Assembly (NCBI GenBank): GCA_020444265.1
Contig: JAHLLH010000002.1
Span: 609,033 to 673,032, forward strand
Reading direction: 5' to 3'
Length of the DNA: 64,000 bases
Origin: a bacterium
GTDB taxonomy: Bacteria > Electryoneota > Electryoneia > Electryoneales > Electryoneaceae
How positions within the stretch are numbered: the first letter of the stretch is position 1; each line of letters begins with the position of its first letter. Below are positions 41,069 to 61,677 of the stretch, one piece after another. The translations under genes and the position numbers were made by a program. The notes beneath the pieces were generated by a model, which saw only the letters and a list, made by a program, of their open reading frames with translations, did no database searches and was not told where the DNA came from.

Positions 41069-42484
41069 ATGGATGAGCGTCACCAGGACAGCTTGTTTCG
41101 TGTAATTTTAAGCTCGATCGCCGACGGTGTCTTTACTGTCGATGAATCCCGTACGCTTACCTCGTTCAATCCCGCCGCCGAACGGATTACCGGTGTTCCC
41201 TCCAGCCAAGCCGTTGGGAAAAAGTGCTACGAAGTGTTCCACAGCGACATCTGTGAATCTGGCTGCCTGCTCGAAAAAACCCTTCAGACTGGTGTGGAAG
41301 CGATTGATATCCCCGTACGGATTCTCAACTCCGACGGGCGACGGATCCCGGTATCCATCTCGACAGCGGTACTGCAAAATGACAGCGGCGAAGTACTTGG
41401 GGCTGTCGAAACCTTCCGTGACCTCACCGCCATTGAAGATCTGCGCAAGGAGCTCGAACAGCGTTACAGTTTTGAGGACATCATTACCAAGTCGCCGGAG
41501 CTCCTCAAGCTGATCGGGATCCTGCCCGATGTCGCGGAAAGCGGCAGTACGGTTCTGATCCAGGGGCCTTCCGGTAGTGGCAAGGAACTTTTCGCCAAGG
41601 CGGTGCACAATCTCTCGCCACGTCGCGATAAGCCCTATGTCGTGATTAATTGCGGCACCCTGCCACCCCAGCTTTTCGAGTCGGAGCTGTTTGGCTATCT
41701 AAAAGGCGCCTTCACCGATGCCAAGCACGACAAGCCTGGCAAGCTGGCTGGAGCGGAAGGCGGGACAGTTTTCTTCGACGAAATCGGCGAGCTGCCGCTG
41801 CAAACCCAAGTGAAGTTGCTACGCCTGCTGCAGCAACACGAATACGAACCGGTCGGTGGGGTGAAGGTTGTCAAGACCAATATCCGTGTGGTCGCTGCCA
41901 CCAATCGTAACCTGCGAGAACAGGTCACACGGGGCGAATTTCGCGAGGACCTTTACTACCGGCTCGCCGTCATCAAATTTGACTTGCCCGAACTGAAAGA
42001 GCGACGAGAAGACATTCCAATCCTCGTCGACCATTTCATCCGTCGCTTCAACGCGCTCACCGGAAAAAACCTGCTCTCCGTCAGCCCCGACTACATGGAA
42101 ACCCTTTTGAGGCATGATTTTCCCGGCAATGTGCGTGAGCTGGAAAATATCATCGAGTACGGTTATGCGGTGTGCCGTGGACGGACCCTCGAGGTGTCTC
42201 ATCTGCCCCTCGAGCTGAAGGCACTCTGGGCGAGGCTGCAAAAAGAACGGTCTGATCTGCCCGGGAAAAATCCCTGGCCCTCCAGCCTGCCGGGAGATCG
42301 TCCCCCACCCGAGAAACGTGCCCAGTCCCCTGTCCGTGTCGCCCTCGAGGAAGAGGCGACCATCCGTCGCACCCTCGAACAAACGCAGGGCCATCGCGGA
42401 CGTGCCGCCAAACTGCTCGAGATGGACCGCACTACCCTCTGGCGGAAGATGAAGAGGTATGGGATTGAGGTGGAGATTATCTGA
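41069..42484 (+). CDS. PAS-AAA-Fis sigma-54 activator, OrpR-like (copy A)
   Basis: 471 residues preceded by GGGGGGAG. An N-terminal PAS domain carries Cys53, Cys62 and Cys66 (C-x8-C-x3-C in [16 protein letters not shown]). The AAA+ domain has Walker A GPSGSGKE, a sigma-54 loop GAFTDA (213-218) instead of GAFTGA, and Walker B GGTVFFDEIGE. The Fis-type helix-turn-helix ends the protein (GHRGRAAKLLEMDRTTLWRKM). There is no receiver, so activity should be set by the PAS domain. Desulfovibrio OrpR, a PAS sigma-54 activator reported to sense redox through an Fe-S cluster, is the nearest described design. The next gene, a NifX-type protein, has a sigma-54-type promoter and is the likely target. Confidence 0.88.
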   Translation: MDERHQDSLFRVILSSIADGVFTVDESRTLTSFNPAAERITGVPSSQAVGKKCYEVFHSDICESGCLLEKTLQTGVEAIDIPVRILNSDGRRIPVSISTAVLQNDSGEVLGAVETFRDLTAIEDLRKELEQRYSFEDIITKSPELLKLIGILPDVAESGSTVLIQGPSGSGKELFAKAVHNLSPRRDKPYVVINCGTLPPQLFESELFGYLKGAFTDAKHDKPGKLAGAEGGTVFFDEIGELPLQTQVKLLRLLQQHEYEPVGGVKVVKTNIRVVAATNRNLREQVTRGEFREDLYYRLAVIKFDLPELKERREDIPILVDHFIRRFNALTGKNLLSVSPDYMETLLRHDFPGNVRELENIIEYGYAVCRGRTLEVSHLPLELKALWARLQKERSDLPGKNPWPSSLPGDRPPPEKRAQSPVRVALEEEATIRRTLEQTQGHRGRAAKLLEMDRTTLWRKMKRYGIEVEII

Positions 42485-42835: not shown

Positions 42836-43612
42836 ATGGTCAGCGTGGACTCACACCAGCAACGCATTGCTGTTCCCTGCTTCGGGGAAGAGGTGGCGCC
42901 GTTGTTCGGGGTGACCAGACGGTTCCGTGTCTGGGACATCGAGGGGGGACGTGTCGCGCATTACCGTGAGGTGGCGCTCGATGATGGCGGTCCCCTGGCT
43001 CGAACCCGACTCATGCGAAACCTCGAAGTGGATGTGATCCTCGCAAATGGCATTGAATCCCAACTGCGCCAGCTCCTCGAATCGGAAGGACGTCTGGTTA
43101 TCGAAGGAGTGGTGGGGACAGCGACCGATGCTCTCTATGGCTTCCTCGCCGGCAGGATTCAAGGGGTCAAGTTCAAGGGCCACACCTCCCCAAACCGTGC
43201 CCAGACTGCCGATGTCACCAGCTGGACGGAAGAGTTGTTGCGTGAGGGGGGCTGGAGCATCCGAACGGTGCATGAACCAGACATTTTTCCAGTCGATTTT
43301 GTCGGGGAACGTCCCTGCCCCATCTGCAACAAACCGGTCCGTATCGCCGTCTGCTGCGGATCGCATGCCTACCGTGTCGATGAAGAAATCCGTGAGTTTC
43401 AACGTGTCACGTCTGCCAATTACCATGCGCGCCTCTATGTCCACCAGGCACTGCCGTCCGTGGCACGGACCTGCACCGAATATGGCATTGAACTGCTGCC
43501 CCCCGACCGTTTCGCTGAGTTAAAAGAGGGCGGCTGGCATAATTGTGAGCTGCCGCCCCTGCGCGGAACCATCAAGGGACATCCCAGCTTGAACCGTTTT
43601 GCCACGGAGTGA
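42836..43612 (+). CDS. NifX/ORP-domain protein with cysteine-rich C-terminal extension
   Basis: 258 residues. Residues 8-120 resemble the dinitrogenase-cofactor-binding fold shared by NifX, NifB C-terminus and Desulfovibrio orange protein: RIAVPCFGEEVAPLFGV at the start and VDVILANGI later. The extension (about 155-258) begins with CPICNKPVRIAVCCGSHAY and contains a further conserved-looking Cys (RTCTEYGIELL). Such domains bind metal-sulfur clusters; here a cluster or redox-partner role is inferred. No nitrogenase genes are present. It is the first gene of the operon with the HdrD-like protein and follows a sigma-54-type promoter. Confidence 0.75.
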   Translation: MVSVDSHQQRIAVPCFGEEVAPLFGVTRRFRVWDIEGGRVAHYREVALDDGGPLARTRLMRNLEVDVILANGIESQLRQLLESEGRLVIEGVVGTATDALYGFLAGRIQGVKFKGHTSPNRAQTADVTSWTEELLREGGWSIRTVHEPDIFPVDFVGERPCPICNKPVRIAVCCGSHAYRVDEEIREFQRVTSANYHARLYVHQALPSVARTCTEYGIELLPPDRFAELKEGGWHNCELPPLRGTIKGHPSLNRFATE

Positions 43613-43626
43613 GAAAGGACTCGTTC

Positions 43627-45102
43627 ATGAACGCTGTCAGCGAGGAACGTCTGGCCAAAGCTTTTGCCATCCCGAAGAAGCCGGAGGTGGTCGAGGAGCA
43701 GAAACTGCCTGTCCGTTATCATGTCGAGACAGGGCTTGAAACCGAAGACCGTCCGAGAAAATTCCTTGAGGCGATGGCGGCGATTCTCAAACACTCCAAC
43801 TATGGTTTCGCGCTTGACCACTTCTCGCGCGTGTCCGCGAAGTGTTCCCGTTGCACGGTGGCTTGCCCGGTCTACCTCGCCACAGGGAAGACCGAGGATA
43901 TTCCCTGTAAGCGGTCTGCTTTGCTGCTGGATGTCTACAAACGGCATTTCACGGTAGGTGGCAAGCTGAAAGCACGTGTCTTGGGCGATCCGGGGTTGAC
44001 CGATGAGTCCATCCAGGAGATGGCGGATTCCTTCTACAACTGCACCGCCTGTCGAAGGTGTCCCAACGAGTGCCCGATGGGGATCGATCATGGTCTTATC
44101 ACCCATCTCGGTCGATACATCCTTGCCGAAATCGGGATCGCACCGAGAGCGTTGGTGGTCTCAACCCGAGAGCAACTTACGGGCCCGACAAAAAACACGT
44201 CAGCCATTCCCACACCCGCATTGATCGATGGCCTCGAGTTCATGGAAGAGGAAATCGAAGAGACCAAAGGGGTCAAGGTCAAATTCCCGATCGATGTTCA
44301 TGGGGCTGAATACCTCTTTGTCGCCCCGGTTTCTGACTACATGATGGAAGCGGAAACCCTGATGGGCATCGCCTGTGTTATGCACGCGACCGGCGGATCG
44401 TGGACGATTGGCACGGGCGATTACGACGCCATCAACTACGGCCTCTTTTACTCCGACCATGTGCTCGAGCACGTGTTGCAGCAGATGGAGGATGAGGCGG
44501 AACGGCTGGGTGTGAAGAAAATTCTGGTTGGCGAGTGCGGCCATGCCAGCCGGTCAGCGAAGTACTTCTACAACCAGTTTGCAACCCGGATGAAACGTCC
44601 CGTGGTCAACATTCTCGAATACACCCATGACGCATTGAAAGCCGGGAAGCTGAAGTTTGATACCGACATCATCAAGGACAAGGTCACCTACCACGATCCG
44701 TGCAATATCGCACGGCCCGGGTGGATTGTCGAACAGCCGCGTGAAATCATCCGCGCCTTCATCAAGGACTTTGTCGAAATGTCCCCGAATGGCCGGGACA
44801 ACTTCTGCTGCGGTGGTGGAGGCGGGACAGTCTCGATTGATGAAATCCGGCCGTACCGCACGACAGTCGGGGGACGGAAAAAAGCGGAACAAGTCGCGGC
44901 AACCGGGGCCAACTATGTAATCGCACCCTGCGCCAACTGCAAGAAGCAGTTCCGTGAAATCCTCGAGGATAACGAGGTCGACTGTGAATTAACCGGCCTG
45001 CACGATCTGATCTACAAGGCGATCATTCTCTCGGAGGATGGAATCGCCTGGCGTGACCCGATGGGCATGGGGGATGATGACTGGACCCCGCCGGAGGGGT
45101 AA
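43627..45102 (+). CDS. HdrD/DsrK/HmcF-like Fe-S oxidoreductase subunit (complex A)
   Basis: 491 residues from ATG 43627 (AAAGGA eight bases upstream; GTG 43609 is in frame). Two ferredoxin-type motifs occur (CSRCTVACPVY ... CKRS near residue 76 and CTACRRCPNECPMG near 140). A C-terminal CCG-type domain follows with HDPCNIAR, NFCCGGGGG and PCANCKKQF, the signature that binds the special Fe-S centre of heterodisulfide-reductase-type enzymes. There is no signal peptide, so it faces the cytoplasm. In Hmc, Tmc and DsrMKJOP complexes this subunit exchanges electrons with cytoplasmic thiol/disulfide partners and with the NarI-like cytochrome b, whose gene follows after a 322-base repeat-filled gap. 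Confidence 0.9.
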   Translation: MNAVSEERLAKAFAIPKKPEVVEEQKLPVRYHVETGLETEDRPRKFLEAMAAILKHSNYGFALDHFSRVSAKCSRCTVACPVYLATGKTEDIPCKRSALLLDVYKRHFTVGGKLKARVLGDPGLTDESIQEMADSFYNCTACRRCPNECPMGIDHGLITHLGRYILAEIGIAPRALVVSTREQLTGPTKNTSAIPTPALIDGLEFMEEEIEETKGVKVKFPIDVHGAEYLFVAPVSDYMMEAETLMGIACVMHATGGSWTIGTGDYDAINYGLFYSDHVLEHVLQQMEDEAERLGVKKILVGECGHASRSAKYFYNQFATRMKRPVVNILEYTHDALKAGKLKFDTDIIKDKVTYHDPCNIARPGWIVEQPREIIRAFIKDFVEMSPNGRDNFCCGGGGGTVSIDEIRPYRTTVGGRKKAEQVAATGANYVIAPCANCKKQFREILEDNEVDCELTGLHDLIYKAIILSEDGIAWRDPMGMGDDDWTPPEG

Positions 45103-45424: not shown

Positions 45425-46132
45425 GTGGATAGCTGGCTGGAGTTTGCAAGCGGACCTTTGTTCCGCCTCAGTTTCACCCTGATGCTGCTCGGCCTGGCAC
45501 GTGTGCTGTTCCTCTCGCTTGCGGGGATCAGCATTGCCTTGCGTCGAAGCGGTGACCGTGTCGTTCCCTGGGGCGATGCCTTTAGAAAAACGGTCAACTG
45601 GTTGTTTCCGGTCAATCGCGTCTGGAGGACACGTCCAATCTACAGCACAATTTCGGTGCTGTTCCATGTCGGGCTGATCCTGGTGCCGCTCTTCTATTCC
45701 GCGCACATCCTGCTGTTCCGTGAGTCGGTCGGTTTCGCCTGGCCGCTCGTCCTGCCACAGGCCTGGGCTCACAACCTGACCCTGTTGACCCTTATTGGGG
45801 CGGGATTGTTGTTCCTGGGAAGAGCCTTCGACAAGCGGGCCCGCGCCTTGTCGCGCCGAGGCGATTATCTCTGGCCGATCCTGCTGGCAGTGCCCTTCCT
45901 TACCGGCTACCTCTGCGCCAATGTCACTCTTTCCGCGCAGGGCTACCAGGTTTCGATGCTGGTCCACCTGCTCAGTGCCAACATAGTGATGCTGCTGATT
46001 CCCTTCACCAAAATCGCCCACTGTGTGCTGATGCCGTTGTCGCAGTATGTCAGCGCGGTGGCGTGGAAATTCCCGAAGGGCACGGGTGATCGTGTTGCTG
46101 CCACCCTCGGCAAGAAGGAGGTGCCGGTATGA
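45425..46132 (+). CDS. NarI/DsrM/HmcE-like membrane cytochrome b subunit (complex A)
   Basis: 235 residues from GTG 45425, preceded by GGGGGGAG. Five to six transmembrane helices are visible. Four histidines sit in two helices as in NarI-type dihaem cytochromes (SVLFHVGLILVPLFYSAHI, and MLVHLLSAN with a later TKIAHCVL). It would carry electrons between the membrane quinone pool and the HdrD-like subunit at the cytoplasmic face. The next gene starts in an overlap (ATGAG at 46129). A clear homologue is encoded at 59538-60236. Confidence 0.88.
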   Translation: MDSWLEFASGPLFRLSFTLMLLGLARVLFLSLAGISIALRRSGDRVVPWGDAFRKTVNWLFPVNRVWRTRPIYSTISVLFHVGLILVPLFYSAHILLFRESVGFAWPLVLPQAWAHNLTLLTLIGAGLLFLGRAFDKRARALSRRGDYLWPILLAVPFLTGYLCANVTLSAQGYQVSMLVHLLSANIVMLLIPFTKIAHCVLMPLSQYVSAVAWKFPKGTGDRVAATLGKKEVPV

Positions 46133-46935
46133 GCCAGCATGTCCAGGGAAACAAGGCGATTCTGACCGACACGACCAAGTGCATCGGCTGCCGTGAATGC
46201 GTGCTTGCCTGCAAGCAACGCAATAAACTCGAGCAGGATAAACCACGTCGCTGGTCGCTCGATGATGGCCTTTCCGCACGCAACTGGACCTCGATTGTTG
46301 AGCGTCCCGGCGGGGATTATGTCCGTAAACAATGTCGTCACTGCTTGGAACCCGCTTGTGTATCCGTCTGTCCGGTCGGTGCTCTCTCGAAGTCCGAAAC
46401 GGGAGCGGTGATCTACGATGGCGACAAATGCATGGGTTGCCGTTACTGCATGATGGCCTGTCCCTACGGCATCCCGCGCTACGATTGGGATTTGGCTGTG
46501 CCGTACGTGCGCAAATGCATTCTCTGCGACGATCAGGTGAAACAGGGCGGTTCCCCAGCCTGCACGGAAGCCTGTCCGACCGGTGCGACCATCTTCGGCA
46601 CACGTGATGAGTTGATCGTTGAAGCACGCCGTCGCATCGAAGCCGACCCGGACCGTTATGTGAACCACATCTGGGGCGAGGATGAGGTAGGCGGAACCTC
46701 CGTAATGATGATCTCGAACATTGACCTCAGCTTCCTCTCTTATGGCACGAAGCTCGACTCAACCCCGCTTCCGGCACGGACCAAAACCGCGATGGGTGCG
46801 GTACCGGCGGTCTTCGCCGGGATGGCCGCGACCATGACAGGCCTCCACTGGATCATCAAACGCCGGATGGAAAATCACGGAGCGGTCCCCACGGTTGAAG
46901 AAGAGGGTGACAACGGGAACGGAGGTGACGCATGA
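46129..46935 (+). CDS. Four-cluster ferredoxin subunit with C-terminal membrane anchor, DsrO/HmcB-like (complex A)
   Basis: 268 residues. Four [4Fe-4S] motifs are present: CIGCRECVLAC, CRHCLEPACVSVCP, CMGCRYCMMACP and CILCDDQ with a later CTEACP. This is the DmsB/PsrB/HybA-type electron-transfer subunit that partners NrfD-like proteins. No Tat or Sec signal is visible at the N-terminus. A single hydrophobic helix near the end (about 223-245) can anchor it. The lack of a signal suggests a cytoplasmic location, unlike DsrO; that is inference. Its gene overlaps the NrfD-like gene by four bases. Confidence 0.9.
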   Translation: MSQHVQGNKAILTDTTKCIGCRECVLACKQRNKLEQDKPRRWSLDDGLSARNWTSIVERPGGDYVRKQCRHCLEPACVSVCPVGALSKSETGAVIYDGDKCMGCRYCMMACPYGIPRYDWDLAVPYVRKCILCDDQVKQGGSPACTEACPTGATIFGTRDELIVEARRRIEADPDRYVNHIWGEDEVGGTSVMMISNIDLSFLSYGTKLDSTPLPARTKTAMGAVPAVFAGMAATMTGLHWIIKRRMENHGAVPTVEEEGDNGNGGDA

Positions 46936-48785
46936 ACCGCGCAAGGACGCTGAAAACCGTTCTCTGGACCATCACCGGCTTCGCGGCTGCGGTCGCTTTG
47001 ACACGGTTCGTGTTTGGTCTCGGGGCGACCACCAATCTGACCGATGGGGTCCCCTGGGGCTTCTGGATCGGCTTTGATGTGATGGGTGGTGTCGCTCTGG
47101 CGGCAGGCGGGTTTGTATTGACTGCGTTTGTCTACATCTTCAAACGCGAAGAGCTGCATCCGATCGTTCGCCCAGCGGTCTTGACCGCCTTCCTCGGCTA
47201 CCTCGCAGTCATTTTCGGCCTGCTGTTTGACCTTGGCCTGCCGTGGAACATCTGGCATATGATTGTCTGGTGGAACCCCCATTCTCCCTTGTTCGAGGTG
47301 GGCTGGTGTGTCATGCTCTACACCTCCGTGCTGGCCCTCGAATTCCTGCCGGTGCCGCTGGAGGATCAACCGCGCTGGCAGTCGATTCACCGTTTCCTGA
47401 GCAAGCTGCGGATTCCGTTGGTCATCACCGGGATCAGCCTCTCGACCCTGCATCAGTCCTCGCTGGGGACGTTGTTCACGATCATGCCGTACCGGGTCCA
47501 TCCCCTCTGGTACTCGCCGATCCTGCCTATCCTCTTCTTCCTTTCGGCGGTGATGCTGGGGTTGTTCATGGTCACGTTTGAATCGGAAACTACCTCCTGG
47601 ATCTACAAGAAGAAGCCGGAAACTCACCTGCTCGCAAAGCTGAACAAGGCGACCCCCTTCATCATCGGCCTTTACATCCTTGTCCGCTTCATTGACCTCG
47701 GAGTACGTGGGCAGTTGGGTGTGCTAGCAGAAGGTGGCTGGCAGGTTGGGATGTTCTGGGTCGAAATCCTCGCCTTCATGGCCTTGCCACTGTTGTTAAT
47801 GGCTATTCCGAAGTCACGAAACAACACCAACCTGCTCTGGACTGCATCCTGGCTGGGAGTTTTCGGGGTAGTGCTCAACCGGATCAACACCGGCGGCCTG
47901 ATGCACCAGGGTCGTGGGGTAGAAGCCTACCTGCCGGGCTGGACCGAAATCGCGATCAGCATCGGGGTGGTCTCTGCGGCGGCGTTGGTCTTCCTCTTTG
48001 TCATCGAGCATTTCAACATCCTCGATGCTCGTCCGGTTGACCCCGAGAAGGCTCCCACCGAGAAACCCCATTTTGAACCGGTGGGGATGGTCTGGCTCGG
48101 ATCGCCGGAAGTTTCAGCGCGGACTGGTTTCTCACTCGCCTTTGTGCTGGCGGCGGGAGTAGGGATGATGCTGCTTTCCGGCAAAACGGTTCGGAGCGAA
48201 GGTCTCGAACCGACCGTTGTAATCGCGGCACGTGGAGGGGATACGCTGTTTGTCGATGGGAACCGGGACGGTTACGGTGTCGCGTTCACCCATCAGCAGC
48301 ATGAACGTCGGATGATGGAAACCGAGGCGAATTGCGCCACCTGTCATCACATGAACCTGCCGGGCGACGAGCAGTCCAATTGTGCATCGTGCCATGCCGA
48401 CCAGTACATGACCACCGATGCTTTCGGGCATGACTGGCACTCCTCGCCTGCTGGTGGAAAACTGAGTTGCACACAGTGTCATGCAGCGGGCGAAGTGCGT
48501 TCTGCGGACAACGCGAAGCAGTGCGATGCCTGCCATACGGACCTGGTTCCCGAATATGCATCCATCGAGATCAACAGCTACGAAGCCCCAGCCTACACCG
48601 ATGCGATGCACAAACTTTGCATCGGTTGTCACCAGGAACAAGCGGTCGCCCTCGAGCAGGAAGGTTTGCCACGCTGCACTCAGTGTCATGGCGAGATGCG
48701 TAACGTGGTCACTGCCGATGCACGCAGTGTGCCGATACGGCCCGCGCCTGGTGTGGTGCTGCCTCCGTCGACGGTGGAGGAGTAA
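46932..48785 (+). CDS. NrfD/HybB-like membrane protein fused to a six-haem cytochrome c (complex A)
   Basis: 617 residues. The first 370 residues carry about ten transmembrane helices of the NrfD/HybB type (FGLGATTNLTDGVPWGFW near the start). An eleventh helix (about 398-418) leads to a C-terminal domain with six CxxCH haem motifs from Cys468 to Cys582 (CATCH, CASCH, CTQCH, CDACH, CIGCH, CTQCH). Eleven helices with a cytoplasmic N-terminus put the cytochrome in the periplasm, where haem attachment occurs. In Dsr and Hmc complexes the NrfD-like subunit and the cytochrome are separate proteins; here one chain does both. It would connect a periplasmic donor or acceptor with quinones. Confidence 0.9.
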   Translation: MNRARTLKTVLWTITGFAAAVALTRFVFGLGATTNLTDGVPWGFWIGFDVMGGVALAAGGFVLTAFVYIFKREELHPIVRPAVLTAFLGYLAVIFGLLFDLGLPWNIWHMIVWWNPHSPLFEVGWCVMLYTSVLALEFLPVPLEDQPRWQSIHRFLSKLRIPLVITGISLSTLHQSSLGTLFTIMPYRVHPLWYSPILPILFFLSAVMLGLFMVTFESETTSWIYKKKPETHLLAKLNKATPFIIGLYILVRFIDLGVRGQLGVLAEGGWQVGMFWVEILAFMALPLLLMAIPKSRNNTNLLWTASWLGVFGVVLNRINTGGLMHQGRGVEAYLPGWTEIAISIGVVSAAALVFLFVIEHFNILDARPVDPEKAPTEKPHFEPVGMVWLGSPEVSARTGFSLAFVLAAGVGMMLLSGKTVRSEGLEPTVVIAARGGDTLFVDGNRDGYGVAFTHQQHERRMMETEANCATCHHMNLPGDEQSNCASCHADQYMTTDAFGHDWHSSPAGGKLSCTQCHAAGEVRSADNAKQCDACHTDLVPEYASIEINSYEAPAYTDAMHKLCIGCHQEQAVALEQEGLPRCTQCHGEMRNVVTADARSVPIRPAPGVVLPPSTVEE

Positions 48786-48788
48786 GCG

Positions 48789-50663
48789 ATGCTCGCAGTC
48801 GATGACATGATGAAGGATGGAACCTTCCATCTTGCCCTTTTCGAAGCCCTCCCGGTCAGTGTGGCCGTGGTGGACCGCGAGTGGCATGTCATCGCCGCGA
48901 ACAAAGCCTTCGAAGAGACCTTTGGCTACTGGAAGGGACGTACCTGCCACGAGGCATTCAAGAGTAACCCGGCGCGCTGCAAGAACTGCGAAGCACGAGC
49001 CGTATTCGAGGATGGACGGATCCGTGTCGGGGACCACCAGGGGTTGGATCGTTTCGGACGGGCTTGCGACTATGCGGTCCATTTTGCGCCGCTACGTGAT
49101 GAGAAGGGTGAGGTTACTCATATCCTCGAAGTTGCGAGCGATGTGACCGAAACCAAACGCTGGAAAGCGGAATACGACCGGCTGTTTGACAACGTTCCCT
49201 GTACGATCTCGATTCTGGATCGTGACCTGCGAGTTGTACGCGCCAACCGCAGCCTGGAAGAGACTTACGGCCGCGCGAAAGGGCATCCCTGCTTCAAGGT
49301 GTACAAGGGACGCACCACGCCCTGCGAGAACTGTCCGGCGATGCAGACTTTCAAGGATGGTCTCGAGCATCTTTCCCGTCAATCGGGACGGACTCCGGAT
49401 GGTGAGGAGACGCATTACATCGTCAGCACCTCACCCTTCACTTGGGACTCCGATGGTGTTGATCAGGTGATCGAGATATCGACCGATGTAACCCAGCTGC
49501 ATGTGCTCGAGGTGGAGCTGCGCGAAGCGCACGAACTCTACCAGAGTCTGATCTCGAACGCACGGGACGGCATCCTTGCTGTGGATACCGAAGGCAGTGT
49601 TCGCATTTTGAACGATGCGGCGAAACGTTTAATCGGCTGGGACCGGCCCGATCCACCCGATCCGATGACGCTTCGCATGATGCTTCCCGGCGACTTTTTC
49701 CTTCCGCGTGGCGAGATGGAGCAACGGCCCGATTATGAGTTTCGCATCCCCGCCCAGGAAGAGGGCGAAGGAGTCGATGCCAGCGGAGAAATCCCGGTCC
49801 TTTTCCGTGCGATCGAATTGGAGGGGGAGCGTCACTCCCTGGGACGAGCCGCCTTTCTTCAAGACCTGAGTGCACTGCGTACGCTGGAACGTGAAAAGCT
49901 CGACAATGAACGTCTCGCAGCGGTTGGGCAGACTGTTGCCGGGTTGGCGCACACGATCAAAAACCTGCTTATGGGCCTTGAAGGTGGCATGTACATGGTC
50001 GACTCAGGTTTGCAACGGGGTGATGCGGACCGCTTGAGCCAGGGTTGGGAAATGCTGCAGCGCAACTTCGAGAAAACCTCCTCGATGGTGCGTGACTTCT
50101 TGTCCTTTGCCAAGGGACGTGTGCCGAAGCTGGTGCACACAGACCCGTTGAAACTGATCCATGAAGTCGTGCAGCTTTACCGTGATACGGCAAAACGGCT
50201 TGGGGTAACCCTGAAGGTGGAAGAGGGGAAAACTCTCTTCGATGCGCCGTTGGATCGAGATGGGATCGAAGCCTGCCTGACCAATTTGATCAGCAATGCG
50301 ATTGATGCAGTTACCCTCGAGCAGGAAGGCGGCGGTGAGGTTTCGGTTCGTGCCTACGATGACGAGAGCAACTCACTCGTATTCGAGGTGCAGGACAACG
50401 GCATCGGGATGGAGAGCGAGGTCGCGAGGCAGGTATTTACCACCTTCTTTACGACCAAGGGTGGTAAGGGAACGGGTCTTGGCTTGCTGACGACACGGAA
50501 AATTGTGCAGGAGCACGGCGGGACGATTGAGCTGGATAGTGAACCGGGGGTGGGCAGCACCTTCCGGATATGCCTTCCACGTGAACGCCTCGAGGCGATA
50601 GCGTCGGAGCAGGCGAAACGTGACAAGAAGGCGGAGACGTACTCGAGTGGGGGGAGAACATAA
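48789..50663 (+). CDS. Soluble PAS histidine kinase with two cysteine-motif PAS domains
   Basis: 624 residues with no membrane helix. Three PAS domains are visible (about 8-125, 125-240, 245-370). The first two each carry C-x10-C-x2-C: Cys53/64/67 and Cys168/179/182. The kinase core has His388 (GLAHTIKNLLMG), NLISNAIDAV, DNGIG and GTGLGL, all intact. It starts three bases after the NrfD-cytochrome gene and is followed by two receiver genes, so it probably reports the redox state of complex A. Cysteine-bound clusters in the PAS domains are inferred from spacing only. Confidence 0.88.
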   Translation: MLAVDDMMKDGTFHLALFEALPVSVAVVDREWHVIAANKAFEETFGYWKGRTCHEAFKSNPARCKNCEARAVFEDGRIRVGDHQGLDRFGRACDYAVHFAPLRDEKGEVTHILEVASDVTETKRWKAEYDRLFDNVPCTISILDRDLRVVRANRSLEETYGRAKGHPCFKVYKGRTTPCENCPAMQTFKDGLEHLSRQSGRTPDGEETHYIVSTSPFTWDSDGVDQVIEISTDVTQLHVLEVELREAHELYQSLISNARDGILAVDTEGSVRILNDAAKRLIGWDRPDPPDPMTLRMMLPGDFFLPRGEMEQRPDYEFRIPAQEEGEGVDASGEIPVLFRAIELEGERHSLGRAAFLQDLSALRTLEREKLDNERLAAVGQTVAGLAHTIKNLLMGLEGGMYMVDSGLQRGDADRLSQGWEMLQRNFEKTSSMVRDFLSFAKGRVPKLVHTDPLKLIHEVVQLYRDTAKRLGVTLKVEEGKTLFDAPLDRDGIEACLTNLISNAIDAVTLEQEGGGEVSVRAYDDESNSLVFEVQDNGIGMESEVARQVFTTFFTTKGGKGTGLGLLTTRKIVQEHGGTIELDSEPGVGSTFRICLPRERLEAIASEQAKRDKKAETYSSGGRT

Positions 50664-51172
50664 TGACAGACCACGACAGCAGGCTGATCCTTGTGGTGGA
50701 TGACGAGGAAGATGTACGCCGTTACCTGACCCTCGCCCTCGAGGATGCTGGGTTCAATGTGGTAACGGCGTCGGATGGCTTCCAGGCGATGGAAGTTCTT
50801 CAGAATTCACAGGTGGACTTGATATCACTTGACCTGGTGATGCCGAAACGGTCCGGGGCTGCATTTTACCGAGATCTGCAACGGGTTCCAGAATTCAAAT
50901 CGATTCCTGTTCTCATTGTGACCGGGCATGCTCGAGATGATGATGGAAAGGCTGATTTTGAAGAGCTGACCATGTCAGGTCCAGGCATTTACCTCGAAAA
51001 ACCAGTTCGTCCGGACAACTATGTCGCCAATGTTCGAAAACTGCTGGGAATCGAAGAGGAGTCAGGCGGAGATGAACAGCCGGAAAATCTGCGTCAACAG
51101 CTTGAAGAGCATTTGAAGACGGCTGACAGCGAAGCGCTGCAACGTGCGCTGGATGCCTTGAAACGTCAATAA
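50663..51172 (+). CDS. Single-domain response regulator with C-terminal tail
   Basis: 169 residues. The receiver domain spans 1-128 with acidic pocket DDEED, acceptor Asp57 (LISLDLVMPK), Thr in VTGHA and Lys in YLEKPV. The remaining 40 residues form a short charged helix and no DNA-binding or enzymatic output. It starts within the stop codon of the kinase gene (TAATG overlap), so the two are surely partners. Confidence 0.9.
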   Translation: MTDHDSRLILVVDDEEDVRRYLTLALEDAGFNVVTASDGFQAMEVLQNSQVDLISLDLVMPKRSGAAFYRDLQRVPEFKSIPVLIVTGHARDDDGKADFEELTMSGPGIYLEKPVRPDNYVANVRKLLGIEEESGGDEQPENLRQQLEEHLKTADSEALQRALDALKRQ

Positions 51173-53293: not shown

Positions 53294-53671
53294 ATGAACC
53301 TAGCCATTCCGACATGGAACAACCGTGTGTCGCCGGTGTTTGATGTGGCGGCCACATTCCGGGTCTTCAGCATTGAGGCCTCGGCGGTTCGGGTGTTGCA
53401 GCACATCGTCCTTCACCAGACCTCGATCGAAGCACGTGCCGATGCGCTCAAACGTCTTGAAGTCGATGTGGTGGTCTGCGGTACAATTTCACGTGCAGCA
53501 CGGAGGGCTTTGACCCAACGCAAGATCGAGGTACAGCCGCATATCTGCGGCGACACTGAAGCGGTGGTCGAGTCCTATATCCAGGGGACGTTGGAGGAGG
53601 AAGAACGGTTTGTGATGCCGGGATGCGGATGGGGCGGCAGGTCGCGGTGCCGTCGCAGGGGTCAGAGATGA
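53294..53671 (+). CDS. NifX/orange-protein-like domain protein
   Basis: 125 residues. The start MNLAIPTWNNRVSPVFDVA is the characteristic first strand and loop of the NifX/NifB/ORP fold, and VDVVVCGTIS fits the second half. The tail is Gly/Cys/Arg-rich (PGCGWGGRSRCRRRG). Such proteins bind metal-sulfur clusters (Mo-Cu in Desulfovibrio gigas ORP, Fe-Mo cofactor precursors in NifX); the ligand here is unknown. It opens the right-hand arm of the divergent ORP-like cluster, with AGGAAG before the ATG. Confidence 0.82.
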   Translation: MNLAIPTWNNRVSPVFDVAATFRVFSIEASAVRVLQHIVLHQTSIEARADALKRLEVDVVVCGTISRAARRALTQRKIEVQPHICGDTEAVVESYIQGTLEEEERFVMPGCGWGGRSRCRRRGQR

Positions 53672-53701
53672 TCAGAAGATTGCAACGAAAGGAGTAAAAC
53701 A

Positions 53702-54046
53702 ATGCCAGGTGGAAACAGGAGAGGACCTGCCAATAAGGGCCCGATGACTGGTCGCGGGCTGGGATACTGTGCTGGTGCCGAAGGTCCGGGAAGTCCACGA
53801 CCCGGTAATGGCTGGGGAGGTGGTTTCGGACGTGGTTTCCGTCACGGTTGGAGTGGCGGCGGTCGAGGCCGTGGTTGGGGCTGGGGTGGAGGCTATGGGT
53901 ATGCACCCGATGCCCCGGTTTCACGGGACGAAGAAATTGATTTCCTCAAGCAGGAAGCAGCAGCGATGAAAGAGGCGATGCAGGAGATCGATGCACGTCT
54001 CCAGCAGCTTGCCACTCCGGACGACACGGAGTCATCGACCAGCTAA
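53702..54046 (+). CDS. DUF5320-like glycine-rich protein
   Basis: 114 residues. The N-terminus (MPGGNRRGPANKGPMTGRG followed by LGYC) is the hallmark of DUF5320 proteins, which accompany NifX/Mrp clusters in anaerobes. The middle is very Gly/Arg/Trp-rich and probably disordered; the last 40 residues are a coiled-coil-like helix (EEIDFLKQEAAAMKEAMQ) that could mediate oligomerisation. Function is unknown. AAAGGAG precedes the ATG. Confidence 0.75.
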   Translation: MPGGNRRGPANKGPMTGRGLGYCAGAEGPGSPRPGNGWGGGFGRGFRHGWSGGGRGRGWGWGGGYGYAPDAPVSRDEEIDFLKQEAAAMKEAMQEIDARLQQLATPDDTESSTS

Positions 54047-54076
54047 ACCGCAGAATAGAATGCGGGAAGGAGAAGG

Positions 54077-54484
54077 ATGAGAGGACGAAACAAACAGTCG
54101 TGGGGTGGAGGTGGCGGGCAGGGTAGACGGCATCGTCGCAAGCGAAACGGTGTCTGTCGTGAGTCGAACACGGGTTCAAGCAGCCGATCAATTGATGGCG
54201 GCGCACTGAGCGAGGTGCTGTTGGCCGTTGCAGTTCCAGTGGTCCGATTCGCTGGAAAACTGCTGCGTGAACGTGTTCAGCATCTCCTCGCACCGTCCCG
54301 AACGACAAGCGAGAGACGGGAACTCGAACCTCAAACCGTCCGCAAAGTCAAGGTCCTGTCCAGTGAACCCGTCGAGGATCATCCGACAGCTGAATCCCTT
54401 GAAGAGGGTGACCACGCGGTCCATGTGATTGAAGAATCGAAACAAAACCATCATCCAGATCAGGAGCAGGAGGAAGAACTGTGA
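54077..54484 (+). CDS. Hypothetical protein with Gly/Arg-rich N-terminus and acidic C-terminus
   Basis: 135 residues that I do not assign to a family. The first 25 residues are Gly/Arg/Lys-rich (GGGGGQGRRHRRKRNG). A hydrophobic helix follows (about 45-60, LSEVLLAVAVPVVRFAGKLL), long enough for membrane contact. The last 60 residues are polar and acidic, ending QEQEEEL. It lies between the DUF5320-like and NifX genes, preceded by GGAAGGAGAAGG, and overlaps the next start by four bases, so it is very likely a real operon member. Small Gly-rich proteins of this kind occur in similar clusters. Confidence 0.6.
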   Translation: MRGRNKQSWGGGGGQGRRHRRKRNGVCRESNTGSSSRSIDGGALSEVLLAVAVPVVRFAGKLLRERVQHLLAPSRTTSERRELEPQTVRKVKVLSSEPVEDHPTAESLEEGDHAVHVIEESKQNHHPDQEQEEEL

Positions 54485-54843
54485 AATTGGCCTTTTCAAC
54501 TGGGGGAACGACACCCGATGCGCCCCTCGACCCACGTTTCGGACGTGCATCCGCATTTCTTGTATTGGATCTCGAGACAAAAGAGTTTGACCTCATCGAC
54601 AACGGCCAATCGGTCGGGGCCGCACAGGGGGCGGGAATTCAGGCTGCGCAGCGGTTGGTTCGTGCTGATGTAAAGGGACTAGTCACCGGCCATTGCGGCC
54701 CAAAAGCATTCCAAGTGCTCAACTCTGCCGGGATCGATGTCTACTACTCCAATGCTGGCACCATCCGTGAGGCGCTGGAGGATTTCGAGAACGGCAAGCT
54801 GTCTCTCTCATCCGGCGCGGATGTTCGTGGGCATTGGAGCTGA
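54481..54843 (+). CDS. NifX/orange-protein-like domain protein (second in cluster)
   Basis: 120 residues with the NifX/ORP fold. The start MKLAFSTGGTTPDAPLDPRFGRA carries the loop typical of the ORP/MTH1175 branch, and VKGLVTGHCGPKAFQVLNSAGI is the conserved second half with its Gly-His-Cys-Gly turn. It is closer to the common anaerobe COG1433 proteins than the copy at 53294. Overlap with the preceding gene (ATGA-like, GTGAAATT context) and 38-base spacing to the ATPase gene indicate one transcript. It probably carries or delivers a metal cluster to or from the ATPases. Confidence 0.87.
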   Translation: MKLAFSTGGTTPDAPLDPRFGRASAFLVLDLETKEFDLIDNGQSVGAAQGAGIQAAQRLVRADVKGLVTGHCGPKAFQVLNSAGIDVYYSNAGTIREALEDFENGKLSLSSGADVRGHWS

Positions 54844-54881
54844 CTTCGTGACATCCCTAAACAGTTGATCTGGAGGAGCGC

Positions 54882-55796: not shown

Positions 55797-55840
55797 GCGA
55801 TGCCTGGAACTCAGAAAAGCAAATAGAGGAGAGTTTAGAC

Positions 55841-56767: not shown

Positions 56768-58759
56768 TCACAACCCCCGTTTTTTGGCAGCCAGCTCCAC
56801 CAGGGATGATGCGGCATCCAGTTTTTCACCCTCCTCGGGGCGAGGTTTGAATCCCGGCATCGGTTGATGGCAGGTGGTGCAACGGTCCAGGTCGGGACGA
56901 CCAGCTGCCTCTTTTTCTTTCCTATGGCACTCGATACAGGTCTGATGCATGGCGGAGTGGTAGCTCGACGCGTGCATCAGGCCATTTGGATCGTCAGGCG
57001 GATCGACGGGATGCATGTCCTCACGGTGACATTCGAGGCACCCTTTCGCTGTCGACGCAGCGTGGTACGCACCCAATGTGTGGCAACAGGCGCAGCTCTG
57101 GTTTTCCGGTTGCAACCCGTGAAATTGCTCCGCCGCTGCGACAGCCGCTGTGTGATGGTCATGGTCGAAAAGGGGGCTGCGCTCCTCCATCGCGACATGG
57201 CAGTGCGAGCAGGGAGTTGCCTGATCCCCCGGCAGGGTCAGGTGATGGCATGAGGTGCAAGAGGTCTCAGTACCAAGCCGTTGCCTGTGTTCGGCATGCG
57301 CAAAGAGCACTTCATACCCGTTCCGGTTGGCATCGATTCGCAGGGTGTCCCGTTCACTATCAAGCGCGAGGGGAGGAGAAACAGGTTCTGGAGTTTCGGG
57401 CCAGTAGGGCGGATAGAGCAGCCACCATGAGATGGGCAGGACAATCAGCGCGATCAGGGTTACTCGTTCGAATCCCGTGAGCAGACGATGGTTCCAGACA
57501 CGGGTCAGTCGATCAAATGAAGAGCCGAGAGCGAGTTGGGTGTCCGAGACGGGTTTCCGATGGTTTGTGAAGATCGAAAACTGTTCGACGATGAAGAAGA
57601 AGGCAAGCCCGGCCATCGCCAGCACACCGACTGTGATCGCCCATTCGATGAGGGATGGGAAATAGACTTCGCCCGCATCACGGAAGTAGCCGAAGATGCC
57701 GACGTTCATACGGTTCAGTGCCAGTCCCGATGCGCCGAGACCGCAGACGAAGGCGAGGCCATTCGCTGAGTGACGGACTCGTTGCGAAAAGATCAGACCA
57801 ATCGGCAGCACGGTCGCGATCAGCATTTCGGAGAGGAAAAGCCAACTCTCCCAAGTGCCCTCAAACAGCGCTGAAGACGCCTCGGGACGAAGGAGCAAAT
57901 CGGCAAGTTTTAAGATCAGATATAGGGTGAGGACAACACTTCCGGCAATCGCAAGCGCACGTACCTCGCGCAAAGGAGAAGCGCTCGCAGGTTCACCGTC
58001 GGTAGCGGACTCTGGGTCAGTGGCGCAAACCATGCTTTGCTTCCTCTGGATTCCAACGATCAGCTCACCTGGAGTGTACCACCAGTGGTAAAGCAGCTTG
58101 ATGAGGCCGAGTAGCATCATTCCGCCACCCATCGCAGAGATGATGAAGAGCAGCGAAATCATCGGGCTGTACCACAGCACATGTAGCCGTTGCGGAGTCA
58201 CCAGGAAGAGGGATCCCAGCGAGGTGTGGTGCAAACTGGATAGGGTAATCCCGATCACCACCAGCCAGGGTGCAGCTTTTTTCAGACTGTGCTGCAAACG
58301 AGTCATCCGAGTCCGTTCCAGCAGGGAGGGGCTCAGTTCGAAGAAGGTGACGAGAAAATAGAAGGAGACACACCAGAAAACTTCGAAGAGGAAACTGTGG
58401 GGATTCCAGAAGACAAACGGGTGCCAGAAACGCCAGGGAAGGCCGATGTCAAAAAGCAGAGCAAAGAGCGATGAGCCATAGCCAAGGAAGGCGACCAGGA
58501 TAGCCGGTTTGACCAGACGGTCAAAGGGTTTGATGTGCAGCACGTGGCCGAGAAAACCGATGGTGAAGCCGCTCGTAGCAAGGGCGGCGCCGCCCACCAT
58601 ATTGAAGATTTTCCACAAACCCCAGGGGACATGGTCATCGAGATTCGTGGTGGCACCGAGCCCGAAGATGAACCGGAAAAGCATGGCCAGCAGGCCAGCA
58701 AACACACACACCCAGAGGATATCCTTCACTCGCCGTGTACGATCCAGCGTCTCCATCAT
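56768..58759 (-). CDS. NrfD/HybB-like membrane protein fused to a six-haem cytochrome c (complex B)
   Basis: 663 residues from ATG 58759, which overlaps the ferredoxin stop (TGATG) and has AGGGAG just upstream; ATG 58756 is an alternative. The NrfD-type helices (FGLGATTNLDDHVPWGLW) are followed by a hydrophobic segment and six CxxCH motifs from Cys501 to about 631 (CTSCH, CSHCH, CACCH, CLECH, CIECH, CTTCH). It has the same architecture as the complex A protein, with a longer soluble loop near residues 225-260. The conserved fusion in both copies shows it is not an assembly artefact. Likely periplasmic cytochrome, quinone-linked membrane part. Confidence 0.9.
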   Translation of the reverse strand: MMETLDRTRRVKDILWVCVFAGLLAMLFRFIFGLGATTNLDDHVPWGLWKIFNMVGGAALATSGFTIGFLGHVLHIKPFDRLVKPAILVAFLGYGSSLFALLFDIGLPWRFWHPFVFWNPHSFLFEVFWCVSFYFLVTFFELSPSLLERTRMTRLQHSLKKAAPWLVVIGITLSSLHHTSLGSLFLVTPQRLHVLWYSPMISLLFIISAMGGGMMLLGLIKLLYHWWYTPGELIVGIQRKQSMVCATDPESATDGEPASASPLREVRALAIAGSVVLTLYLILKLADLLLRPEASSALFEGTWESWLFLSEMLIATVLPIGLIFSQRVRHSANGLAFVCGLGASGLALNRMNVGIFGYFRDAGEVYFPSLIEWAITVGVLAMAGLAFFFIVEQFSIFTNHRKPVSDTQLALGSSFDRLTRVWNHRLLTGFERVTLIALIVLPISWWLLYPPYWPETPEPVSPPLALDSERDTLRIDANRNGYEVLFAHAEHRQRLGTETSCTSCHHLTLPGDQATPCSHCHVAMEERSPLFDHDHHTAAVAAAEQFHGLQPENQSCACCHTLGAYHAASTAKGCLECHREDMHPVDPPDDPNGLMHASSYHSAMHQTCIECHRKEKEAAGRPDLDRCTTCHQPMPGFKPRPEEGEKLDAASSLVELAAKKRGL

Positions 58760-59541
58760 CAACTCCCTGGTTCATCATTCGGCAATTTCGCAGACCCTTC
58801 CGCTCCCTTTGCCTGTTCCATCCTACGCTTGACAATCCAGTTCAATCCGACTACCGCGGTGAGCACACTACCTCCGATCCAGGGGGTGGCATGGAGGACA
58901 GGTGCAACAGTAGCCGGGATGGAATCAGCATTCTGCTCTGGCCATCCGAGCTCGTGCAGGTCCACATCGGAGATGTAGAGCACCCCGGTACCCCCGAATT
59001 CGGACTCACCGTAGATATGGTCCAGATAGCGGTCTGGTTCGGAGGTAATCCGGCGTCGCGCTTCAGCGAGCATTACTTCCCGTGAACCAAAGGTGATCGC
59101 ATTTTCGGGGCAAGCTTCGTAACAGGCGGGTGGTTTCCCTGCTTCAAGACGTGCGAAACACCAGTCGCATTTCCGGACAAGCGGAGTTGTGCTGGACCAC
59201 TCGTATCGTGGAATGTGAAACGGACAGGCGAGCATGCAATAGCGGCAACCAATGCACTTGTCCCCATCATAGACCACAGCACCGAGCTCGTTTCGTGTCA
59301 GCCCGCCGACAAGGCAGGCGGAAACGCAGCTCGGTTCGAGGCAGTGCATGCAAGCCTTTTTCGCAAATCGTGTCCAGCCGATAGTTTCGACGGTGGAGAG
59401 GCGGTTTTCCGATAAGCCATCCAGGGCGGTAGCACGGTCCCGGTCAGCTAAGCGTGGGTCAATGCCATTCTGCTTGACACAGGCAGCAACACACTCCTCA
59501 CAGCCGATGCAACGGGTAACATCGATCAGCATGCCGCTCAT
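58759..59541 (-). CDS. Four-cluster ferredoxin subunit with C-terminal membrane anchor (complex B)
   Basis: 260 residues, homologous to the complex A ferredoxin along its whole length. Cluster motifs are CIGCEECVAAC, CMHCLEPSCVSAC, CIGCRYCMLACP and CDWC with a later CYEACP. The second motif ends ACLVGG rather than the usual CPVGA, so a proline after the last Cys is lost. No signal peptide; one hydrophobic helix near the end (WIGGSVLTAVVGLNWIV). It is coupled to both neighbours by overlapping codons. Confidence 0.9.
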   Translation of the reverse strand: MSGMLIDVTRCIGCEECVAACVKQNGIDPRLADRDRATALDGLSENRLSTVETIGWTRFAKKACMHCLEPSCVSACLVGGLTRNELGAVVYDGDKCIGCRYCMLACPFHIPRYEWSSTTPLVRKCDWCFARLEAGKPPACYEACPENAITFGSREVMLAEARRRITSEPDRYLDHIYGESEFGGTGVLYISDVDLHELGWPEQNADSIPATVAPVLHATPWIGGSVLTAVVGLNWIVKRRMEQAKGAEGSAKLPNDEPGS

Positions 59542-60236
59542 ATTTTCGCCCCCTTCCCGAAGAGTGTTTCTGCTACACGGTCACCCGCTCCAGGCTTGAG
59601 CTGCCAGTGCATCTCCGAAATGCGGTCGAAGAAGAAGAGGACGATGTGCGATAGCTTGGTCAACGGCACCAGGACAAAGAGGAGTTCGGCGCTGAGTAAA
59701 TGCATCAGGAACATCGCCTGCCAGGGCAGCGGATTCATGGTGGGATGCGCTGCAAAAAAACCAGTGAGGAAAGGTAGCAGGACCACGATCAGTACGGCTG
59801 TGTCCGAGGAACGATTAATCGTTCGCAGCTTAGTATTTCCTAGACGGCTTGCCAGCAGAACCAGCAGGGCGAGGATGGTGATGATGGTCAAGGTGTCCGC
59901 GACCGTTGCACTGAGTGCAGGAAGGGAAACAGCGAACAGCTTCTCCCACAAGGCGATATGGCCCGCGTAAAAGAGAGGAACCAGGATCGCCCCAATGTGA
60001 AAAATAAAGGAAGAATTGGAGAAGAGGACGTTGCCGCTGGTCAGGTGACGGATGGGCACAACCCAGCCGAGGGAATCACGTGCCATTTTGCGCCAGGGCA
60101 TGTGCCGCAGCCTGCCCGCTTTTCTGCGAAACAGCGTGTCGAGCTGCTGGATAAGGTGACGTAGCAGTCCGATCAGCATGAAAAGAAAGGTCACGGCGAA
60201 AAGAGGACCCATCGCGAGGTCTATCCAAGTGCGCAT
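59538..60236 (-). CDS. NarI/DsrM/HmcE-like membrane cytochrome b subunit (complex B)
   Basis: 232 residues with five to six transmembrane helices. The four putative haem-ligand histidines are conserved relative to the complex A copy (SFIFHIGAILVPLFYAGHI, and FLMHLLSAE with TKLSHIVL). Start and stop are tightly spaced with the HdrD-like gene (10 bases) and overlap the ferredoxin gene by four bases, so the order K-M-ferredoxin-NrfD is the same as in complex A. Confidence 0.88.
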   Translation of the reverse strand: MRTWIDLAMGPLFAVTFLFMLIGLLRHLIQQLDTLFRRKAGRLRHMPWRKMARDSLGWVVPIRHLTSGNVLFSNSSFIFHIGAILVPLFYAGHIALWEKLFAVSLPALSATVADTLTIITILALLVLLASRLGNTKLRTINRSSDTAVLIVVLLPFLTGFFAAHPTMNPLPWQAMFLMHLLSAELLFVLVPLTKLSHIVLFFFDRISEMHWQLKPGAGDRVAETLFGKGAKI

Positions 60237-60246
60237 CGGTATTTCC

Positions 60247-61677
60247 TCACATCGCGTAGAGTTGAGCTTCTTCGAGACGTTCCTCGGCGCTCTTCCCGCC
60301 GGGGATCTCGATTGCTTTCAGGATGAGGTCGTGCAGCCCCATGATTTCACACGGAATTTCGTAGTGCTCGACCAATTCCTTGAGCTGTTTTTTGCAATTC
60401 GCGCAGGGTGCGATGCAGATATCCGCCCCGGTTGCGATCAGCTGTTCTGCTTTCTTACGTCCCCCAACTTCCATGCGGTAGTCGTGAATCTCATCGATGG
60501 ATACCAACCCACCGCCACCCCCACAGCAATAGTTCAACTTCCCACCGGGAGTCATTTCGACATAATCTTTGACGAAGGATTTCAGGATCTCACGTGGCTG
60601 ATCGACAATCCATCCCCCTCGTGCGATGTTGCACGGGTCATGATAGGTGACCTTCTGGGTGATGATGTTGGGGTTGAGTGTGATCTTGCCTTTGCGCAGG
60701 CAGTCGAGGGTGTACTCGATGAAGCTGACGACGGGGGAGGGTCGTTTCCCGCCGAAGACCGGCACAAAATCGTGCGCGGAACGGGAAGCATGGCCACATT
60801 CACCGATCAGCAGATTTTTACCGTTGAGACGTTCCACTTCTCCAACTAGCTGCTTGATGATGCGTTCGAGATGCCAGTCGCTATAGAAGAGGCCGTAATT
60901 AATGCCATCGTAGTTGCAGGAGCCGATGGTCCAGCGGTCCCAGTCACCGGCGGCGTAGAGTACTGCGAGATTGCCGAGCAGGGTGTCCGGTTCCATCAGG
61001 TAATCGCTGACAGCGCAGAAGAAGACGAAATCACGGTCCTGTTTGTCGACCGGCACCTCCACCTGCAGACCAAACTGGTCCTCCAGCTCTTCCTGCAAAA
61101 ACTCCAGCGTGTTGAGCATGGCAACCTTTGGAATCTTCGAGGTGTTGTGAGTTTCACCCTCAAGCTGCTCGCGTACGCTGACCTGCAGCGCTTTCGATGA
61201 GATGCCCGCAAGGCTGAGGATGTAGCGGCCAAGTCGTGTGATCAGACCATGATCCATCCCCATCGGGCATTCCAGCGTACACCTCCGGCAGGCGGTGCAA
61301 CGATAAAAGACATCCGCCATCTCGAGGATGATCTCCTCGGTCAGTTCGAAGGCGTGTGTGTTGAATTGGGAACGCATCCAGCCACCAAGCGAGAAATAGC
61401 GCTGGTAGACCTGAAGCAGCAGGGTGGTCTTGTAGCAGGGAACATCCCGTGCTTCCCCTGTCACCTGGTAGACCGGGCAGGTGACCGAGCAACGATTGCA
61501 CTTGTTAGTCGTCCGGCAGTAGGAGTCGAGCAGGGGTTTGTAATCGGTATGCTCGAGGATGGCGGCGAAGGCATCCAGAAATCGTTCCACCAACCCAGTT
61601 GCAGGTGGGTTTTCGACATAATAGGGCAGTCGTTCACGCAACATCTGCTGGGAGGCATTTTCGACAGTTTCGGGCAT
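60247..61677 (-). CDS. HdrD/DsrK/HmcF-like Fe-S oxidoreductase subunit (complex B)
   Basis: 476 residues, first gene of the leftward operon. Ferredoxin motifs are CNRCSVTCPVY ... CYKT and CTACRRCTLECPMG; the CCG-type domain has HDPCNIAR, NYCCGGGGG and PCANCKKQL. All key cysteines match the complex A copy. AGAGAG precedes the ATG. A sigma-54-type promoter lies about 40 bases upstream, so complex B should be under sigma-54 control. Confidence 0.9.
   Translation of the reverse strand: MPETVENASQQMLRERLPYYVENPPATGLVERFLDAFAAILEHTDYKPLLDSYCRTTNKCNRCSVTCPVYQVTGEARDVPCYKTTLLLQVYQRYFSLGGWMRSQFNTHAFELTEEIILEMADVFYRCTACRRCTLECPMGMDHGLITRLGRYILSLAGISSKALQVSVREQLEGETHNTSKIPKVAMLNTLEFLQEELEDQFGLQVEVPVDKQDRDFVFFCAVSDYLMEPDTLLGNLAVLYAAGDWDRWTIGSCNYDGINYGLFYSDWHLERIIKQLVGEVERLNGKNLLIGECGHASRSAHDFVPVFGGKRPSPVVSFIEYTLDCLRKGKITLNPNIITQKVTYHDPCNIARGGWIVDQPREILKSFVKDYVEMTPGGKLNYCCGGGGGLVSIDEIHDYRMEVGGRKKAEQLIATGADICIAPCANCKKQLKELVEHYEIPCEIMGLHDLILKAIEIPGGKSAEERLEEAQLYAM

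Follow-up and report, generated by a model that had tools for sequence, protein, structure and literature searches.

The window, by which we mean the whole analysed stretch of 64,000 nucleotides, carries an operon of four genes, here called K, M, O and PJ, the last of which encodes an NrfD-type quinone protein and a hexahaem cytochrome c in one polypeptide. We found this fusion at more than 70 loci in about ten phyla, across which the operon is syntenic. K-M-O-PJ appears to be a relative, so far undescribed, of the Hmc and DsrMKJOP complexes that sulfate reducers possess. In the open-access papers searched, on NrfD proteins, Hmc, the evolution of DsrMKJOP, cable bacteria, sulfate-reducing Acidobacteriota and Tariuqbacter, no description of an NrfD-hexahaem fusion was found. 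Many uncultured lineages possess dsrAB, and the link between their periplasm, their quinone pool and DsrC is unclear; K-M-O-PJ is conserved and keeps the same regulatory neighbours, and may bear on this question.

Architecture and topology of the fused protein

The PJ gene (46932..48785, + strand) is a single stop-free reading frame of 617 codons. Two Pfam domains are recognized above cut-off in its product, NrfD over residues 34-318 (E 3.9e-22) and Cytochrom_CIII over residues 495-586 (E 1.4e-13). The protein can be divided into an NrfD part of ten transmembrane helices (residues 1-361; 46932..48014, +), an eleventh transmembrane helix (residues 392-414; 48105..48173, +) and a haem domain with six CxxCH motifs and six conserved additional histidines (48240..48782, +). 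The first-pass annotation of this DNA had proposed that an NrfD-like protein and a six-haem cytochrome form one polypeptide, which the open frame, the two domains and the conservation of the fusion bear out.

An AlphaFold2 model computed from 36 fused sequences and devoid of haem contains ten NrfD helices and the eleventh at residues 392-414, in agreement with the helix count first proposed (about ten plus one). The haem domain, modelled without its haem, has a low pLDDT and is unusable. The top Foldseek matches of the NrfD part are ActC proteins of alternative complex III. In the 74 fused proteins tested, a hydrophobic segment separates NrfD from the first haem motif (lowest 19-residue mean hydropathy 1.47). 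The lysine and arginine charges of the PJ loops alternate in a manner that fits a cytoplasmic N-terminus and a return to the inside after helix 10, and helix 11 therefore sets the haem domain in the periplasm. The earlier deduction from the odd number of helices, that the cytochrome lies outside the membrane, thus agrees with the loop charges.

The six CxxCH motifs span residues 468-586; their number is as first reported but they occupy the last 150 residues and not the last 130. The additional histidines are residues 454, 457, 473, 500, 503 and 560. In 72 aligned relatives, the histidines of all six CxxCH motifs and five of the additional ones are invariant, far above chance, and the sixth is present in 66. 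Six haems and six distal histidines would be compatible with bis-histidine ligation. By its Pfam match, its six CxxCH motifs and these six histidines, the haem part can be assigned to the class III multihaem type, and by its NrfD fold and predicted periplasmic quinone site, PJ can be assigned to the NrfD/PsrC family.

Among all NCBIfam models, HmcC scores best with PJ (305.3 bits), followed by HybB (287), QrcD (117) and DsrP (39.5). The HmcC and DsrP scores are below the respective equivalog cut-offs of 550 and 350 bits. The haem part gives weak NCBIfam matches to HmcA and to the nine-haem cytochrome.

The operon and its second copy

The genes are ordered K, M, O, PJ, with four-base overlaps between M and O and between O and PJ, and no separate cytochrome gene is present within the operon. 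K (43609..45102, +) is a cytoplasmic Fe-S protein with a CCG motif that resembles DsrK, TmcB and HmcF. DsrK is its best family (305.3 bits for a cut-off of 400), HmcF scoring 197.5 bits for a cut-off of 750, and the motif CX30-40CCGX30-40CXXC is found in K at 59 of 61 loci. M (45425..46132, +) is a NarI-type membrane cytochrome b closest to HmcE and TmcC (HmcE 117.8 bits, cut-off 275). O (46129..46935, +) is a ferredoxin subunit with four clusters and a C-terminal anchor, lacking a Tat signal, of the HmcB/HybA type (HybA 215 bits). The best families of the four subunits are thus HmcC for PJ, HmcB for O, HmcE/TmcC for M and DsrK/TmcB/HmcF for K.

The surroundings of the operon are conserved as well. 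A PAS sigma-54 activator (41069..42484, +) has homologues near the operon in 33 loci, and a NifX-like (Nitro_FeMo-Co) protein that overlaps K (42836..43612, +) has homologues upstream of K in 27. Directly downstream of PJ lies a PAS histidine kinase (48789..50663, +; homologues in 53 loci), followed by a response regulator (50663..51172, +; 52 loci). Because these regulatory and NifX-like neighbours recur across phyla, K-M-O-PJ is probably under a conserved regulation of its own.

A diverged second K-M-O-PJ operon (56768-61677, - strand) faces the first one. It comprises a PJ protein (56768..58762, -) of the same make-up, NrfD fused to six haems, with 38% identity to the first and belonging to what we call clade B, an O subunit without Tat signal (58759..59541, -), a TmcC-like M (59538..60236, -) and a DsrK/HmcF-like K (60247..61677, -). 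The region between both operons (53294-56746) encodes a pair of NifX-like proteins, one DUF5320 protein and a pair of MinD-type ATPases that contain ferredoxin domains, a set resembling the orange-protein (Orp) cluster of Desulfovibrio. A third, unfused relative is present elsewhere in the genome of the window, on contig C16 (L043:6416-8836), and consists of a Tat-less Fe-S protein, an NrfD protein and, as a protein of its own, a tetrahaem cytochrome.

Distribution and history of the fusion

Of 39 genomes from the window's phylum, 21 contain the fusion, whole or in part; three of these cases are doubtful (cut by a contig end in G002, broken in G009 and cut in G012). With the haem part of PJ as query, 65 loci were obtained from 84,980 species genomes, and nearly all of them have the K-M-O-PJ operon wherever the contig extends far enough. 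The carriers are all metagenome-assembled and belong to Electryoneota/LCP-89 (the group of the window, judging by its relatives), Zixiibacteriota, MAGs labelled Calditrichota, Acidobacteriota, Myxococcota, Gemmatimonadota, Planctomycetota, Chloroflexota, Riflebacteria and Ignavibacteriota.

In a tree of the NrfD part, 71 fused proteins form one group with L120 and with L024, whose sequence ends at a contig end (support 99). The HmcC/HybB proteins that have Tat-type partners fall outside this group. L120 (4818-6708) is a natural split: its NrfD protein ends at about 5964 and is followed, from about 5972, by a membrane-anchored hexahaem cytochrome, the start of which matches the linker and helix 11 of the fused proteins. 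Because of this correspondence, helix 11 can be equated with the N-terminal membrane anchor of a separate cytochrome. L120 as an ancestral unfused state is unsupported, as it sits inside the fused clade (support 99), albeit on a long branch, and a later split appears likelier from its position.

The existence of a split homologue could also be taken to mean that two genes were joined artificially in the window, by frameshift, misassembly or read-through. However, the fusion, its linker and helix 11 are identical in plan in over 70 loci and occur twice in the window, which makes such an artefact a practically negligible possibility. A frameshift or misjoin, named at the outset as one of the things that would overturn the fusion, is rejected on these grounds. 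Two other NrfD-haem fusions, L134:1249-3312 with six haems and L141:1399-3012 with three, lie outside the fused group and their C-terminal haem domains do not match that of PJ, which points to a second, independent joining of NrfD and haem domains.

Relation to known complexes

In its subunit families, K-M-O-PJ resembles the Hmc complex of Desulfovibrio (HmcABCDEF), in which subunits of HmcB, HmcC and HmcE type are combined with a cytoplasmic subunit of HdrD type and a multihaem cytochrome of class III (PMC10924467). In contrast to Hmc, K-M-O-PJ has no separate 16-haem HmcA but a hexahaem domain joined to the HmcC part, its O subunit is tail-anchored like HmcB yet has no Tat signal, its K is nearer to DsrK than to HmcF, and all its scores are under the Hmc equivalog cut-offs.

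DsrMKJOP shares the module types K, M, O and P and a periplasmic cytochrome, K matching DsrK with 305 bits, and K-M-O-PJ is mostly found in genomes that have dsrA. The fusion had been described as DsrP plus DsrJ in effect. This description is only partly borne out: the P part is not DsrP (39.5 of the 350 bits needed, versus 305 for HmcC), and six fused haems of class III type stand in place of the separate trihaem DsrJ. In addition, K-M-O-PJ lies on another contig (C11) than dsrA, its paralogue dsrB and DsrC (C1) in the genome of the window, which also encodes a true DsrP (C1:34964-36103). Canonical DsrP was detected in 58 of the 69 genomes examined, a few of which are not carriers. A DsrP-DsrJ fusion that replaces DsrMKJOP is therefore rejected as a general reading. 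Because of the class III-type hexahaem part and of the canonical DsrP in most hosts, K-M-O-PJ is, as judged from its sequence, an extra Hmc-like complex and not a fused DsrMKJOP. Hmc likewise stands beside DsrMKJOP in Desulfovibrio.

The menaquinone reductase QrcABCD also resembles K-M-O-PJ, with an NrfD protein that bears the QrcD quinone and proton residues, an Fe-S partner and a cytochrome of hexahaem type, QrcA being a hexahaem cytochrome. It differs in that K-M-O-PJ lacks QrcB, has its cytochrome fused and reaches the cytoplasm through the additional M and K. The likeness to Tmc (TmcABCD) lies in the TmcC-like cytochrome b and the TmcB-like K; the cytochrome TmcA is a separate subunit, and to our knowledge Tmc as described contains no NrfD fusion. 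Finally, O and the P part are of the types of HybA (215 bits) and HybB (287 bits) of Escherichia coli hydrogenase-2, although the K-M-O-PJ operon has no hydrogenase and no Tat signal and its haem domain is fused.

Association with dsrA

Carriers of the fusion are strongly enriched in dsrA in three samples. Outside the sample of the window's phylum, 37 of 46 carrier genomes have dsrA above the curated cut-off and three more have only dsrA fragments or DsrB-like matches. Among the 39 genomes of the window's phylum, 18 have both the fusion and dsrA, three the fusion only, two dsrA only and 16 neither, that is dsrA in 18 of 21 carriers versus 2 of 18 others (p 3e-6, a value that ignores kinship). 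For 140 genomes drawn evenly from the phylum of G076 (Myxococcota, NCBI lineage), the corresponding numbers are three, four, two and 131, that is dsrA in 3 of 7 carriers versus 2 of 133 others (p 7e-4, kinship again being ignored).

Carriers without dsrA include four genomes in the L135-L138 group, G037, which is 77% complete, and, in other phyla, a few MAGs; DsrC therefore cannot be the sole partner. In one genome without dsrA and DsrC (G009, L149:2952-5685), O has a frame break and PJ an internal deletion. Since most hosts have a canonical DsrP as well, sulfite reduction as such does not require K-M-O-PJ, which is an additional complex.

A respiratory or extracellular electron conduit unrelated to sulfur may be considered here, in which menaquinol would be oxidized at NrfD, electrons would exit by way of the hexahaem domain towards cytochromes of the periplasm or the outer membrane, and K-M would be a cytoplasmic entry for thiols or lactate-like donors. 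The carriers without dsrA and the distant similarity of K to GlpC, LdhH and TfrB type proteins are consistent with this view, but the enrichment of dsrA in all three samples and the ranking of DsrK as the best family of K argue against it, and we regard it as quite unlikely.

In three genomes with dsrA, namely those of Tariuqbacter (G038), G067 and G016, DsrP was not detected, and a replacement of DsrMKJOP of the DsrP-DsrJ type may have taken place in these cases. Tariuqbacter is reported to lack recognizable DsrO and DsrP in its dsr operon and to possess two divergent dsrK genes (PMC10439189). As the Tariuqbacter genome carries the K-M-O-PJ operon, the latter may bear on this gap; our guess is that one of the two dsrK genes is the K of K-M-O-PJ.

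Quinone site and proposed mechanism

Mutation of D70, Y110, S138 or Y150 in QrcD abolishes Qrc function (PMC13059093). These residues and R358 of QrcD align with D49, Y90, S118, Y130 and R317 of PJ. Y90, S118 and Y130 are kept in every aligned fused relative that has sequence at these positions. Aspartate at the position of D49 is found in 53 of 65 clade A proteins, about a fifth of this clade lacking it, and all eight clade B proteins, the second copy of the window included, have asparagine instead. For clade A, the alignment, together with the conserved tyrosine by the proximal cluster of O (the position of QrcC Y113, 84 of 84 subunits), is evidence that quinone binds close to the periplasmic face and that its protons are taken up from the cytoplasm; the mechanism of clade B may differ.

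With moderate confidence, we favor the reading of K-M-O-PJ as a complex of the Hmc/Tmc/DsrMKJOP kind that, in lineages reducing sulfite or sulfate, connects cytochrome c of the periplasm with menaquinone and with a disulfide site in the cytoplasm, its own cytochrome being tethered. Its redox partners, direction, substrate and energetics are those that we infer as follows. PJ would be the membrane and periplasmic subunit of the four-subunit complex and its hexahaem domain would exchange electrons with periplasmic c-type cytochromes. Electrons would pass from this domain, through or beside O, to menaquinone near the periplasmic face of NrfD, and the protons of the quinone would be taken from the cytoplasm, making the step electrogenic as in QrcD. 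Electron transfer between the quinone and a cytoplasmic disulfide substrate, most likely the DsrC trisulfide, would be the task of M and K. The cytochrome that is separate in Hmc and Qrc would here be tethered to the quinone site. It is plausible, as first suggested, that the covalent attachment removes a docking step, and the tethered cytochrome provides a single-chain system in which electron access to an NrfD quinone site can be tested.

The Fe-S subunit without Tat signal

A Tat signal is absent from O in every fused operon, O starting almost at its first cluster motif, unlike the O partners of separate HmcC/HybB proteins, which mostly bear RRxFL signals. Both HmcB and HybA are described as Tat proteins with a tail anchor (PMC10924467). 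A signal missed through a wrong start codon is rejected, since at many loci the open frame starts only a few codons away from the first cluster motif. Two options follow: a cytoplasmic O, with the quinone served by the tethered cytochrome alone, or an O that is exported without a signal of its own.

The first option would amount to a rearranged topology, with O in the cytoplasm beside K and M and the fused hexahaem domain replacing the Fe-S partner at the periplasmic quinone site. The systematic lack of a Tat signal, in comparison with most HmcC/HybB partners and with HmcB, agrees with it, as does the orientation of NrfD itself: an NrfD protein inverted to suit a cytoplasmic O is rejected, the loop charges being equal to those of Tat-type relatives. 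On the other hand, a positive RR motif after the tail anchor of O predicts a cytoplasmic tail and a periplasmic head, and the tyrosine by the proximal cluster, at the position of the quinone-covering Y113 of QrcC, is kept in all 84 O subunits. Moreover, the two traits are not strictly coupled, Tat-less O subunits also occurring with unfused NrfD. We consider the rearrangement somewhat unlikely. The periplasmic O at the quinone site that the favored linking complex implies is nevertheless hard to reconcile with the missing signal. It is doubtful, albeit conceivable, that K-M-O-PJ constitutes a distinct class of respiratory complex with an Fe-S subunit on the cytoplasmic side and an attached hexahaem cytochrome at the periplasmic quinone site of NrfD, forming a direct wire from periplasm to quinone to cytoplasm in sulfur-reducing bacteria other than the classical sulfate reducers.

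Tat-less O subunits stand beside unfused NrfD proteins at L026, L028, L030, L043, L062 and L120. At L043 and L062, the Tat-less O and the unfused NrfD are accompanied by a separate tetrahaem cytochrome, and the loss of the Tat signal may for this reason precede the fusion.
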